A DNA stretch of 64,000 nt. Source: Promethearchaeota archaeon (GTDB lineage: Archaea; Asgardarchaeota; Lokiarchaeia; Sigyniarchaeales; SOKP01). Below the pieces are notes generated by a model. It saw only the letters and a list, made by a program, of their open reading frames with translations, had not been told where the DNA came from and did no database searches. The stretch lies in contig JAEOUA010000006.1 in assembly GCA_016839555.1 (NCBI GenBank), positions 499,982 to 563,981 of the forward strand. The letters are read 5' to 3'. The translations under genes were made by a program, and so were the position numbers. Positions 30,132 through 34,577 of the stretch are shown here, one piece after another; position 1 is the first letter of the stretch, and each line of letters opens with the position of its first letter.

Positions 30132-33100
30132 TTATGTTTCAGAGGGTATATCCTCTTTTTCAAGCAATTTTTTAGCTTCCTCTTGTAAATCTATGCTAAA
30201 AATATCTGTTATTCCACTCTGTGGCATGGATACACCATAAATTCTGTCCGCATTCACAATATTCTCTTCTCTATGGCTTATTATTAAAAATTGTGCTTGA
30301 GAGGCAAACTCCTTTATTAACATAGATACACGGTGTACATTTGGACCATCTAAGGCCGCATCAATCTCGTCCATTATGTAAAATGGTGCTGGGAGGAATT
30401 CCTGTACAGCAAATATAAATGAAAGTGCCACCAACGTTTTTTCTCCTCCACTTAATATTTCTAAACTTGAAATCTTCTTTCCTCTGGGACGAGCTTCAAT
30501 GCTAACACCCCCCTCAAATGGTGAGTCTGGGCGATCTAAAATCATTTTTGCTGATCCTCCTGGAGAAAGCTTTTGAAAAATGCCGGAAAATTCTCTATTT
30601 ATTTCATGATAAGATTTCATAAAAGTTTGGGTTTTTTCTAATTCAATTTTATCGATAGCATCTAAAATTGATTTTCTTTCTCTCTGAATTGTTTGTCTTC
30701 TCATATCAATTTCATCAAATCTTTCTTTAACTGTATCATATTCTTTAATCGCCTTTAGGTTTACCGGTTCTAATGCTTTTTTACGATTTATTGCTTCTTT
30801 AATATCTTCTTCTAGTTTTTTTTCCGTAATTTCGCTAGTTATTCGAGGAAGCGCCCCAAAATCCTTTGATCGTTGATATAAAGTTTCAATTTGATCATTA
30901 ATAATAATTTTTTTCGACTCCAAGTTATTTATCTTTGAATTTTCCATTGACAGATCAGATTTTAAATCCGTATAGACTTTTTGATAGGATTTTTGTTTTT
31001 CCCAAGACTCATCTTTATTGTGTATTAATTCATCAATTTCTACTTCCTTTTCTTCCTTTTTAGATTTTACTTGTTCAATACCTTTTAAATTTTCATTAAT
31101 TTCTTTATTTAAATCTTGAATTTGAGTTTGGGTTTGTTCAATCTCTTTAGTAAGAGAAATTATTTTTTCTTCTCTTTCTTGATTTTTTTTAAGGTTGTTT
31201 ATCTCATTTTGGATATTTTGAAGGTCAATATTAAACTTATTTAAGCTCTCTTGAGCATTTTTTTGGGTTTCAATTTCCTTTTTCTTGTCTTTCCTTATCT
31301 CATCAATTTCTTTTTGCTTTCTATTTACATCTTCTTCAAGAGTTTGTACTTTTTGTCTTAAATTCTTAATAATATTTTCGCTTTCCGCAATCTTTTCCTC
31401 AGAATTAAGATTTTCTTTTTCTAATTCTTCTACTGAATTAATTATTCTCTGAATATTTTGTAAAGATCTCAATTTATCCAAAATTTTTTCTAAGTCCTTG
31501 TTTTTTTCATCAATTTGAGTTTGCAATATATCATTTATTTCCCAGAACTTCTCTTTTTCAGTATTTAAATCTTCTATTTTTTGTTCTATTTCTTCTTTTT
31601 GAGTCTTAAGAGTATTTATTTTCTCCTCTGTATCATTTATAAGCCCTTTTTTATTTTCAATTGAATCCTTAAAATTTTGTATACTTTGATCTAGTTCTTC
31701 AATATTTTCAAATAAATTTTGGATACCTTTTAAATCCTGCAATTTGATTTGAATGTTTTGTAATATATTTTGTTTATCTTCTATTTTCTTCTGAATCTCT
31801 GAAATATTATTCCAATTTTGGTCTTTTAACTCTTTTAATTCTGCAATTGCTTGGTTTTTTTCTTCTTTCTCCTTTTGTTTTTGATTAATTAATTCATTTC
31901 TGTTATTTATCTCAATCTGATATTTCTTAATTTTTTCTTTTAACTCATTAATTTTATTCTCAATGTCTTCTAAATTATTCTTTTTTACCGTGAGATCTGT
32001 AGAGTGGTGATCCATTTTAATATTTAATTCAGATATTTGTTTCTCAACATCATTTATTTCATTCTCCTGAGTTTTTACATTTTCATTAATCTCATCTAAT
32101 TGTCCATAGAGATCTTGACTTTTTGACATAGTTAATTTTCTTAAGGAGATATGAATATTTTCTAGTATTTCCATTAGGTCTTGTACGAAATTATCAAAAT
32201 TTGAAGTAGAATCTTGAATAGCAATGTCAACAGAATCTTTAACCCTATAAATCAATTGTTCTATTGTTTGATCAGCATTTTCAGTAAATAGAGATAATGT
32301 TTTTAGTATGGAATCTAATTTTTCTCTCATCTCTCTTATTTCATCACCTTCTTCACTCACTTCTTCAATTGATTTCATCATCTCGATAACGTCTAACAAA
32401 AAATTTTCAAAATTTTCTGCAGACATTTCAATTGCTTCTGAATTTGATTGTTGAATATTACTTTTTATTGATTCAACAGAAATATTTATGTTTTGAGTTA
32501 GCATGTTTAAAATTTGGAGTATACCTTTTATATCTTCTTTGTCTCTATCATATTCTTGCTCAGCTCTCTCTATTCGAGCCTTTGTTCTTTCTTTTTCAGA
32601 ATTTAAGCTCTCAAGGCGGTTAAGAACATTATCTTTTCTATTATTAAAATTTAGTGTTTTTTCTTCAATAGTTCGAATATTTTTTTCTAAATCTTCTATA
32701 CTTAATGCTAAATGGTTTTTATTTCGATTTAAATCAGTTAATTCTTTAGAAAAGAGATTTATTTTAGTATTTATGTTACTAATTTTTGCCTCGTTATCTT
32801 TAATTTCAGACAAAATTGTATTTTGCTGCATTTTAAGAAGCTCTAAATTTTTTTCATTTTCTTTATACTTAAAATTCGCATCATTCACATTTTTTCTAAG
32901 TTCTTCGATCTTATTGTTGATTTCATTCCTCTCTTCAATTAAGTTTTTAATAGTGGTTTCAACTTTTTTTCCTTCGACTAAATCTTTAATTTTTTGTTCA
33001 ATTTGTTCTCTTTTTATTTTATTTTTTTCGATATTTTCCTTATATAATTTAATTTCTGTATTAATTGAAGATAAAGTGGATTGTAGTTCGGCGATTGTTG

Positions 33101-34577
33101 CATTTAGTTGATTTTTTCTTTCTTGTTGTGAATTTATATTATTTTCAAGTGTTTTTCTTTTAGAATTCTCCTCAGATAATGAAGTTTTAATTTCTTCGAT
33201 TTCTTTTCTGATTTTATTTTCTATTTCTTTAGTTTTGTTAATGGCATCCTCGATACTCTCTGATTCTCCTTTTAACTTATTTAATTCTTCTTCTAGTTTT
33301 CGCTTTTTATTTTGATTATTTTCTATATTTTCTCTCAAAACATTGATACTTGCTTCTTGGGAAGATATCTCTTGTTTTAGATTAGATATTTCATTTAAAA
33401 TGTTTGCTTTTTTCTCTTCTTCAAAATTAATTTTTTCATCTAATTGTGCTTGATTCTTTTGTGTATTTTCAATTTCTTTTTTCAATTCTTCTATTTTTAG
33501 TTCAATAGACTCACTTTTTTTCTTTGCCTCTTCAATAAGAGTTTCATATGTTTGATTTTGTTCTAATTTCATCTGAAGAGCTTCTGCTTTTTCTTTTTCC
33601 TTTTCTAATTTATTCACAGTTTTATTAGCAAGATCAAGTTTAGTTTCATTAGCAGATAATTCCGTCTTAATTTGAGTAATTTTATTGTTTATTTCATCTC
33701 TTTCTTTTTCTTTTTCATTAACTAAACCCTGAATCTTCTCCATTATTATAGATTCTTGATCCAAGAGCGCTTTTTGATGTTTAATTTTTTCTTCTAATTC
33801 TTCAATGATTTTTTTAGAATCCTCAATATTTTTTCCTAAATCATCTTCTTCTTCTCTTAATTTTGATATTTTTAATGCAATTAATTTTGCATTCAAATCT
33901 GAAATCGTTTTCTCTAAATCTTTCCAAGCTAATGCATCATTTTTTTCTTTTTCAACTTTTTTTAATTGAGAAGAGACTTCTTTAAAAATTGCTTGAAATT
34001 GTCCTAATTCTCTTTCAGCTTTTTCTAACTCCTTCAATGTCTCATCTTTCATATCATCATATTTCTGCAGACCAATTAATTCTTCAATAAACTGTCTTCT
34101 TTCTTCAGTATTCATATGGGTTAATTCCACAATTTTCCCTTGTAAAACAAATTGATTTGAGCCATCGGGATCAATATTTGCTGACGCTAAAACATCAAGA
34201 ATTTGTTGTCTGGTAGCCATTTTCCCATTCATTTTATATTTATTCCCCTTATCTCTTCTTACCACTCTAGTTATTTGAAATTCATCAGTCCCTCCTGGAA
34301 AAATCCCTTCACTATTGTCAAAATAAAGGGTTACAGAAGCTTTATTTACAGGTTTATAACCTTTTGACCCAGCGAAAATTAAATCTGCGAGTTTTTCTGC
34401 CCTCATAGTTTTTTTTGAAAGCCTCCCTAAAGCAAAACATAAAGCATCTATAATATTGCTTTTCCCAGCACCATTAGGTCCAACAATACAAGTAAATCCC
34501 GGTGAAAGTTTTATCGTAACTGTTCTATCTCCGAAAGATTTAAAGCCGGTCATACTTATCCGCTTGATATATGTCAA
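30132..34577 (-). CDS. smc: Chromosome partition protein SMC, very long, atypical hinge
   Basis: SMC ATPase of 1481 residues (usual length about 1170-1190). Walker A GPNGAGKSNIIDAL is at 33-46. The C-terminal head has signature EILSGGEKTL and Walker B APFYIMDEIDAAL, so the heads are intact. Between them run two very long coiled-coil arms rich in Glu, Lys and Asn. The central region, where a globular glycine-rich hinge is expected, shows instead two copies of a 54-residue helical unit (686-739 and 757-810; see 32148-32522). The start is a TTG at 34577 with a GGAGAT ribosome-binding site about 6 bases upstream. It heads the smc-scpA-scpB run. Confidence 0.95.
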   Translation of the reverse strand: MTYIKRISMTGFKSFGDRTVTIKLSPGFTCIVGPNGAGKSNIIDALCFALGRLSKKTMRAEKLADLIFAGSKGYKPVNKASVTLYFDNSEGIFPGGTDEFQITRVVRRDKGNKYKMNGKMATRQQILDVLASANIDPDGSNQFVLQGKIVELTHMNTEERRQFIEELIGLQKYDDMKDETLKELEKAERELGQFQAIFKEVSSQLKKVEKEKNDALAWKDLEKTISDLNAKLIALKISKLREEEDDLGKNIEDSKKIIEELEEKIKHQKALLDQESIIMEKIQGLVNEKEKERDEINNKITQIKTELSANETKLDLANKTVNKLEKEKEKAEALQMKLEQNQTYETLIEEAKKKSESIELKIEELKKEIENTQKNQAQLDEKINFEEEKKANILNEISNLKQEISSQEASINVLRENIENNQNKKRKLEEELNKLKGESESIEDAINKTKEIENKIRKEIEEIKTSLSEENSKRKTLENNINSQQERKNQLNATIAELQSTLSSINTEIKLYKENIEKNKIKREQIEQKIKDLVEGKKVETTIKNLIEERNEINNKIEELRKNVNDANFKYKENEKNLELLKMQQNTILSEIKDNEAKISNINTKINLFSKELTDLNRNKNHLALSIEDLEKNIRTIEEKTLNFNNRKDNVLNRLESLNSEKERTKARIERAEQEYDRDKEDIKGILQILNMLTQNINISVESIKSNIQQSNSEAIEMSAENFENFLLDVIEMMKSIEEVSEEGDEIREMREKLDSILKTLSLFTENADQTIEQLIYRVKDSVDIAIQDSTSNFDNFVQDLMEILENIHISLRKLTMSKSQDLYGQLDEINENVKTQENEINDVEKQISELNIKMDHHSTDLTVKKNNLEDIENKINELKEKIKKYQIEINNRNELINQKQKEKEEKNQAIAELKELKDQNWNNISEIQKKIEDKQNILQNIQIKLQDLKGIQNLFENIEELDQSIQNFKDSIENKKGLINDTEEKINTLKTQKEEIEQKIEDLNTEKEKFWEINDILQTQIDEKNKDLEKILDKLRSLQNIQRIINSVEELEKENLNSEEKIAESENIIKNLRQKVQTLEEDVNRKQKEIDEIRKDKKKEIETQKNAQESLNKFNIDLQNIQNEINNLKKNQEREEKIISLTKEIEQTQTQIQDLNKEINENLKGIEQVKSKKEEKEVEIDELIHNKDESWEKQKSYQKVYTDLKSDLSMENSKINNLESKKIIINDQIETLYQRSKDFGALPRITSEITEKKLEEDIKEAINRKKALEPVNLKAIKEYDTVKERFDEIDMRRQTIQRERKSILDAIDKIELEKTQTFMKSYHEINREFSGIFQKLSPGGSAKMILDRPDSPFEGGVSIEARPRGKKISSLEILSGGEKTLVALSFIFAVQEFLPAPFYIMDEIDAALDGPNVHRVSMLIKEFASQAQFLIISHREENIVNADRIYGVSMPQSGITDIFSIDLQEEAKKLLEKEDIPSET
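32148..32522 (-). repeat. Duplicated 54-residue helical unit at the SMC apex
   Basis: Encoded residues 686-739 and 757-810 of the SMC align without gaps, with about 17 of 54 identical. Shared anchors are IL at the start, T-x-N, and S-x-x-NF-x-NF-x-x-D-x-x-E near the end (ENFENFLLDVIEMM against SNFDNFVQDLMEIL). The midpoint between the copies is residue 748 of 1481. Both copies look helical and lack glycine, unlike the canonical hinge. The role as a dimerisation apex is inferred from position. Confidence 0.75.

Follow-up and report, generated by a model that had tools for sequence, protein, structure and literature searches.

A hinge-less Smc with a duplicated helical apex in an order of Lokiarchaeia

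The hinge is regarded as a core part of Smc, at once its dimeriser, a DNA sensor and a possible DNA entry gate. Can an Smc-ScpA-ScpB complex work without one? The question is raised by a gene at positions 30132-34577 of a 64,000-nucleotide stretch of DNA, here called the window, from the Asgard archaeon Promethearchaeota archaeon (Lokiarchaeia; Sigyniarchaeales; contig JAEOUA010000006.1, positions 499,982 to 563,981). It encodes a 1481-residue Smc whose long coiled-coil arms meet in two copies of a short helical unit. We consider it probable that this protein belongs to a working Smc-ScpAB complex whose hinge was lost and, in the ancestor of the order, replaced by the duplicated 58-residue unit, which tips an antiparallel coiled-coil hairpin and would serve to dimerise it.

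No hinge is detected in the Smc of a Lokiarchaeal Smc-ScpAB operon

The initial annotation of the window, made from the sequence alone, had described a 1481-residue Smc with intact head motifs, and this holds: the open reading frame carries Walker A (GPNGAGKS) at residue 33, QGK at 146, the signature LSGGE at 1375, the Walker B motif DEID at 1403 and SHR at 1434. The protein exceeded the cut-off of the curated NCBIfam model SMC_prok_B (622.8 bits versus 567.35) and scored 647.1 with SMC_prok_A, under that model's 729.4. Other SMC-like identities found no support among the curated models, ASRP reaching 175 bits against a cut-off of 300 and the Rad50 models remaining far under theirs; no MukB profile match was listed among Pfam and curated family models. 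The Smc, ScpA and ScpB genes adjoin in all four families of the order that we distinguished (f1-f4), and the product is most likely the Smc subunit of this organism's Smc-ScpA-ScpB complex.

The same annotation had seen no recognisable hinge, and profile searches and structure prediction agree. Pfam SMC_hinge gave no match in the protein even at E up to 1; this model detects Asgard Smc proteins that have hinges at E values of 1e-5 to 3e-38. When a profile of 14 Asgard Smc hinges was compared with the apex profile, the profile-profile probability was 0.6%. AlphaFold2 modelled residues 600-900, from a 65-sequence alignment, as two unbroken helices (602-742 and 748-899) separated by a five-residue loop, with a mean predicted local distance difference test score (pLDDT) of 86 and 78-84 at the apex. 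The 871-residue segment 300-1170, for which fewer sequences were available, was all-helical too (apex pLDDT 48-70), and neither run placed a beta-strand or an alpha/beta domain at the apex. Two outcomes had been named beforehand as possible refutations, a match to a hinge hidden Markov model and a predicted canonical hinge fold; the first was not seen in the protein, nor the second in either modelled segment. No conserved GG was found at the apex, where only G685 is mostly Gly in the family. A Rad50-type zinc hook at this position was rejected for want of a cysteine pair, CxxC occurring nowhere in the 1481-residue protein and nowhere in residues 600-900 of 25 relatives. By these profiles and models, a globular hinge is absent from this Smc.

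The apex is a duplicated helical unit distinct from the arms

Where a hinge would be expected, residues 680-737 and 751-808 align without gaps over 58 residues at an offset of 71, with 18/58 positions identical. Two gapless copies of 54 residues within 686-810 had been proposed from the sequence; the duplication stands, and its extent is corrected to the 58-residue units given here. The shared anchors reported with them, NF-x-NF-x-x-D-x-x-E, are found in both copies of this Smc, but across the family only F and D are retained, the N residues of copy 1 being variable. A composition-shuffle test of the repeat was discarded, as coiled-coil windows of the same Smc self-match at up to 124 versus 98. 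Because arm windows pass that test as strongly, we relied on profile-profile comparison with arm controls. Unit 1 matched unit 2 with 98.4% probability (E=7.7e-15), and arm segments matched either unit with at most 2.8% (median 0.3%); the arm-arm control contained overlapping segments and was uninformative.

The units also differ physically from the coil around them. Their hydrophobic periods, 3.65 and 3.67, lie near the hendecad value (11/3 = 3.667), compared with 3.49-3.52 in the flanking coil and 3.5 in the arms, where 0/141 windows were at or above 3.62. They are richer in hydrophobic residues (fraction 0.39 versus 0.25 in the arms) and poorer in charged ones (0.22 versus 0.41). Given this period and composition, the tip has more surface to bury than a coil of two helices can accommodate. 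Along the chain, the heads are well conserved and the arms poorly, and conservation returns exactly at 681-830, with a relative entropy of about 2.7-3.2 in the apex units versus 1.4-2.6 in the arms. The early idea that dimerisation may rest on a duplicated helical module is supported: the module is conserved and physically distinct from the arms, as would fit a role as replacement dimeriser. The arm repeats, the ScpA modules and the non-SMC protein with this unit, all described below, were not part of that annotation.

Long helical hairpins of chemoreceptors associate at their tips into a four-helix bundle, and the best Foldseek match of the apex model was a chemoreceptor cytoplasmic hairpin (PDB 2ch7, E=8e-4, TM-score 0.31, 14% identity). 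Kinship was rejected on that TM-score, on the lack of an MCP signal-domain match and on PDB sequence matches that were weak or fell on flanking coil; the likeness is an analogy. In the mechanism that we propose, two hairpin tips would pack through their wide hendecad face into a four-helix-bundle-like homodimer, closing the top of an Smc-ScpAB ring whose arms are longer and jointed. The kleisin, and head engagement driven by ATP, would follow the pattern of other Smc complexes, while DNA-binding modules on the ScpA N-terminus would partly take over the hinge's contact with DNA.

Dimerising tip or docking site

The apex unit also occurs outside Smc. Four genomes of family f2 encode a 925-1041-residue non-SMC protein with four copies in two pairs (internal offset 70), whose apex-type units have a period of 3.63-3.69. 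This protein has no ATPase motifs and ends in a Lys-rich C-terminal tail, with a weak HC2 histone-like match (E=0.012) in one member. Since the unit is present in a non-SMC protein as well, it is a module in its own right, and the four-unit protein might be something that the Smc tip binds.

This possibility underlies the main rival explanation, in which the tip is a docking site for the four-unit protein or some other partner while heads, kleisin and contacts between the arms keep the Smc dimer together. The fourfold occurrence of the unit speaks for docking. However, at E up to 1e-5 the four-unit protein is absent from family f1, this genome included, where the apex is strongly conserved, and self-association would account no less well for a symmetric tandem of units with so wide a hydrophobic face; we regard a pure docking role as unlikely. 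Several points do weigh against a dimerising replacement for the hinge. Dimerisation at the apex is inferred, the wide hydrophobic face could serve to bind a different protein (the four-unit one, for example), the AlphaFold2 models above are least confident at the apex, and the zinc-finger-like and Lys-rich ScpA extensions described below are weak by profile.

Alternatively, the protein could be an SMC-like repair or structural ATPase, the Smc-ScpAB job falling to a hinge-bearing Smc encoded elsewhere. Some genomes do also have a hinge-bearing Smc of ~1195 residues beside an ScpB-like gene, and all complete genomes of the order have a ~1150-residue SMC5/6-like protein. Yet only the hinge-less Smc adjoins ScpA and ScpB in f1-f4, the ~1195-residue Smc is sporadic and absent from this genome, and the hinge-less protein scores above the SMC_prok_B cut-off, which together make this explanation decidedly improbable.

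The arms are built of tandem repeats and vary in whole steps

Both arm strands of the hinge-less Smc show tandem periodicity (Table 1). Chance coiled-coil matches favour multiples of 7, and the C-strand offsets of 90 and 180 are not such multiples; the three N-strand helix breaks come from AlphaFold2, independently of the repeat analysis. Measured between fixed profile anchors, strand lengths were 459-460 (N) and 421-424 (C) in 44/44 distinct full-length proteins of f1/f2 type. Family f4 has strands of 362 (N) and 332 (C) residues, one repeat fewer in each. The difference between f1/f2 and f4 is thus 98 residues (N) and about 90-92 (C), against a spread of 1-3 residues per strand within f1/f2. 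In Bacillus Smc, functional arm lengths recur every 91 residues, which has been ascribed to a superhelical period of ~99 (PMC5344682). That period, obtained by mutation, is close to the Lokiarchaeal step, while absolute arm lengths are not comparable between the two studies, boundaries being defined differently. With their stepwise lengths, the Lokiarchaeal arms put the arm-length rule known from mutated Bacillus Smc to a separate test in nature.

ScpA carries N-terminal extensions of putative DNA-binding types

Alignment with relatives gave ScpA beside hinge-less Smc an N-terminal extension that ScpA of hinge-bearing Asgard Smc does not have. In the window it includes a SAP/HeH-like module at about residues 16-46 (Rho_N/HeH/SAP-type matches, E 0.002-0.005). 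The type differs by clade, being SAP/HeH/Ish1-like in f1 (Ish1 E=5e-7, over cut-off, in the relative L070) and Lys-rich in f2 (e.g. L068), with helix-hairpin-helix in L081 (HHH_5 E=3e-13) and a zinc-finger-like match in L080 (E=0.024, under cut-off). All of these are types known to bind DNA. That the extensions, however different, are all of such types suggests, as a hypothesis, that putative DNA-binding modules on ScpA replace the hinge's DNA contact.

The hinge-less architecture is essentially confined to one order

Near-full-length relatives share 50-64% identity within the same family and 41-42% with a second family. The apex profile (residues 630-870) matched 66/79 genomes of the order, spread over families f1-f4, under Lokiarchaeota record titles. 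Among the 13/79 without a match, three hold gene fragments and most others are incomplete or fragmented; the 13 also include G147 (94% complete) and G158 (92%), despite their high completeness. In a pattern-based scan of 84,980 species genomes the apex appeared only in records with Lokiarchaeota, Lokiarchaeia or Prometheoarchaeum in the title, and on one contig titled Hodarchaeota. As far as these searches reach, the architecture seems essentially confined to one order of Lokiarchaeia. An entire order of the Asgard archaea, which are related to eukaryotes, appears to run Smc-ScpAB without a hinge.

The Hodarchaeota-titled contig (L138/L168, JAEOTC010000276.1) is 8.6 kb long and encodes a 1501-residue hinge-less Smc. 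Its genome also has a 1208-residue Smc homologue, and we attribute the contig's gene to misbinning or gene transfer.

All hinge-less Smc proteins formed one clade in a tree of head halves (support 100/100), sister with moderate support (84.2/85) to Smc proteins of this class that have a hinge. The hinges of these class-level sisters (L059, L060 and L061) are weak, at 31.6, 26.1 and 43.1 bits versus 95-131 in other Asgard Smc, and shortened, part of the second half being missing. Hinge-less Smc is therefore probably sister to Smc with a shrunken, divergent hinge, and the three sisters are possible intermediates toward hinge loss. Their weak, shortened hinges suggest, from sequence comparison, that erosion preceded replacement. 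The same weak hinges could be taken to mean that the hinge of the present protein persists, too diverged for profiles, but this is scarcely credible beside a strictly heptad/hendecad helical apex with no predicted beta-strand, no conserved GG and next to no likeness to the hinge profile.

Comparison with known SMC complexes

Like Smc of the Bacillus subtilis and Pyrococcus Smc-ScpAB complexes, the Lokiarchaeal protein has half-heads at both ends, an antiparallel arm and ScpA/ScpB alongside, and its head phylogeny falls inside Asgard Smc. Unlike them it has no globular hinge, and its arm strands (460/424 between the anchors used) consist of tandem repeats leading to a hendecad apex. Rad50/SbcC and the archaea-specific SMC-related proteins (ASRP) coalescin and Sph (PMC9389158) likewise have a small helical tip instead of a hinge, but with a CXXC zinc hook, for which the Lokiarchaeal Smc has no CxxC. 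MukB shares the long arms and non-canonical apex; the Lokiarchaeal Smc is instead partnered by ScpA/ScpB.

A hinge-less Smc has already been described from metagenomic data for a marine actinobacterial cluster (PMC12153180, 2025). It too has Smc-type heads, no hinge and no CXXC hook. It is portrayed there with a bare coil end, whereas the Lokiarchaeal Smc has a conserved duplicated apex, longer arms and an archaeal operon, a distinction drawn from description. On a Lokiarchaeal hinge-less Smc, an apex made of duplicated helical units or arms built of tandem repeats we found nothing in the open-access literature, subscription literature and preprints being outside the search.

On rich medium, growth is normal in Bacillus whose Smc has a Rad50 zinc hook replacing its hinge (PMC5344682), and the Rad50 hook is exchangeable for the MukB hinge (PMC6969161). 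In the engineered Bacillus protein an unrelated dimeriser replaces the hinge and the complex is functional; that case is artificial and the Lokiarchaeal one natural. On balance we lean towards a clade-wide natural swap of the hinge for an unrelated, mobile, duplicated helical dimeriser, in which paired tandem duplication lengthened the arms by whole superhelical turns, DNA-binding modules shifted to the kleisin and no hinge-DNA gate was left. Such a swap would support what the engineered protein indicated, that the dimeriser's fold is not critical, would mean that a part thought nearly universal is replaceable in nature, and would let one see from a natural case which functions of the hinge are essential. 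If it is true, an Smc-ScpAB without a hinge-DNA gate must load and move without one.

Table 1. Features of the hinge-less Smc locus (window positions) and loci of the four-unit protein
Feature	Position	Strand	Basis
Hinge-less Smc	30132..34577	minus	Open reading frame, TTG start, 1481 aa; Pfam SMC_N E=8e-44; NCBIfam SMC_prok_B 622.8 bits
N-terminal head half, residues 1-220	33918..34577	minus	Walker A at 33
Arm N-strand, residues 221-679	32541..33917	minus	~98-residue tandem periodicity
Predicted helix break 1, residues 335-343	33549..33575	minus	AlphaFold2; GQTYDSL conserved in family consensus
Predicted helix break 2, residues 436-441	33255..33272	minus	AlphaFold2; KGEAESIEEA conserved
Predicted helix break 3, residues 534-539	32961..32978	minus	AlphaFold2; KGK motif conserved
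Apex unit 1, residues 680-737	32367..32540	minus	Repeat; profile match to unit 2; conservation; hydrophobic period 3.65
Hairpin tip loop, residues 743-747	32337..32351	minus	AlphaFold2 and alignment; acidic, length varies across family
Apex unit 2, residues 751-808	32154..32327	minus	Repeat; profile match to unit 1; conservation; hydrophobic period 3.67
Arm C-strand, residues 809-1235	30873..32153	minus	90-residue tandem periodicity
C-terminal head half, residues 1236-1468	30174..30872	minus	Signature LSGGE, Walker B DEID, SHR
ScpA kleisin, 331 aa	29113..30108	minus	Directly downstream of Smc; Pfam SMC_ScpA slightly below cut-off (E=1e-4)
ScpB kite subunit, 225 aa	28408..29085	minus	Pfam SMC_ScpB E=4e-32; TIGR00281 over cut-off
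Four-unit non-SMC protein	L161:4997-8122	minus	
Four-unit non-SMC protein	L162:1083-3860	minus	
Four-unit non-SMC protein	L163:5201-7978	minus	
Four-unit non-SMC protein	L164:5912-8692	minus	

Other SMC proteins of the order

The hinge-bearing ~1195-residue Smc forms a separate clade in the head tree. In L045-L054, where it adjoins the ScpB-like gene, no ScpA was detected beside it. A heterodimer of this paralogue with the hinge-less Smc was held unlikely, the paralogue being absent from most genomes and its arms much shorter.

The sole hinge match over cut-off in the present genome lies in its 1148-residue SMC5/6-like ATPase, on another contig (C7). At L065:6538-11949 (minus strand) the corresponding 1147-residue ATPase, with a hinge and the Walker A motif GPNWSGKT, forms a trio with proteins of 227 and 427 residues. 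These two had no match to anything named and may be the kleisin and kite of the SMC5/6-like ATPase; the trio recurs in L066 and L067.

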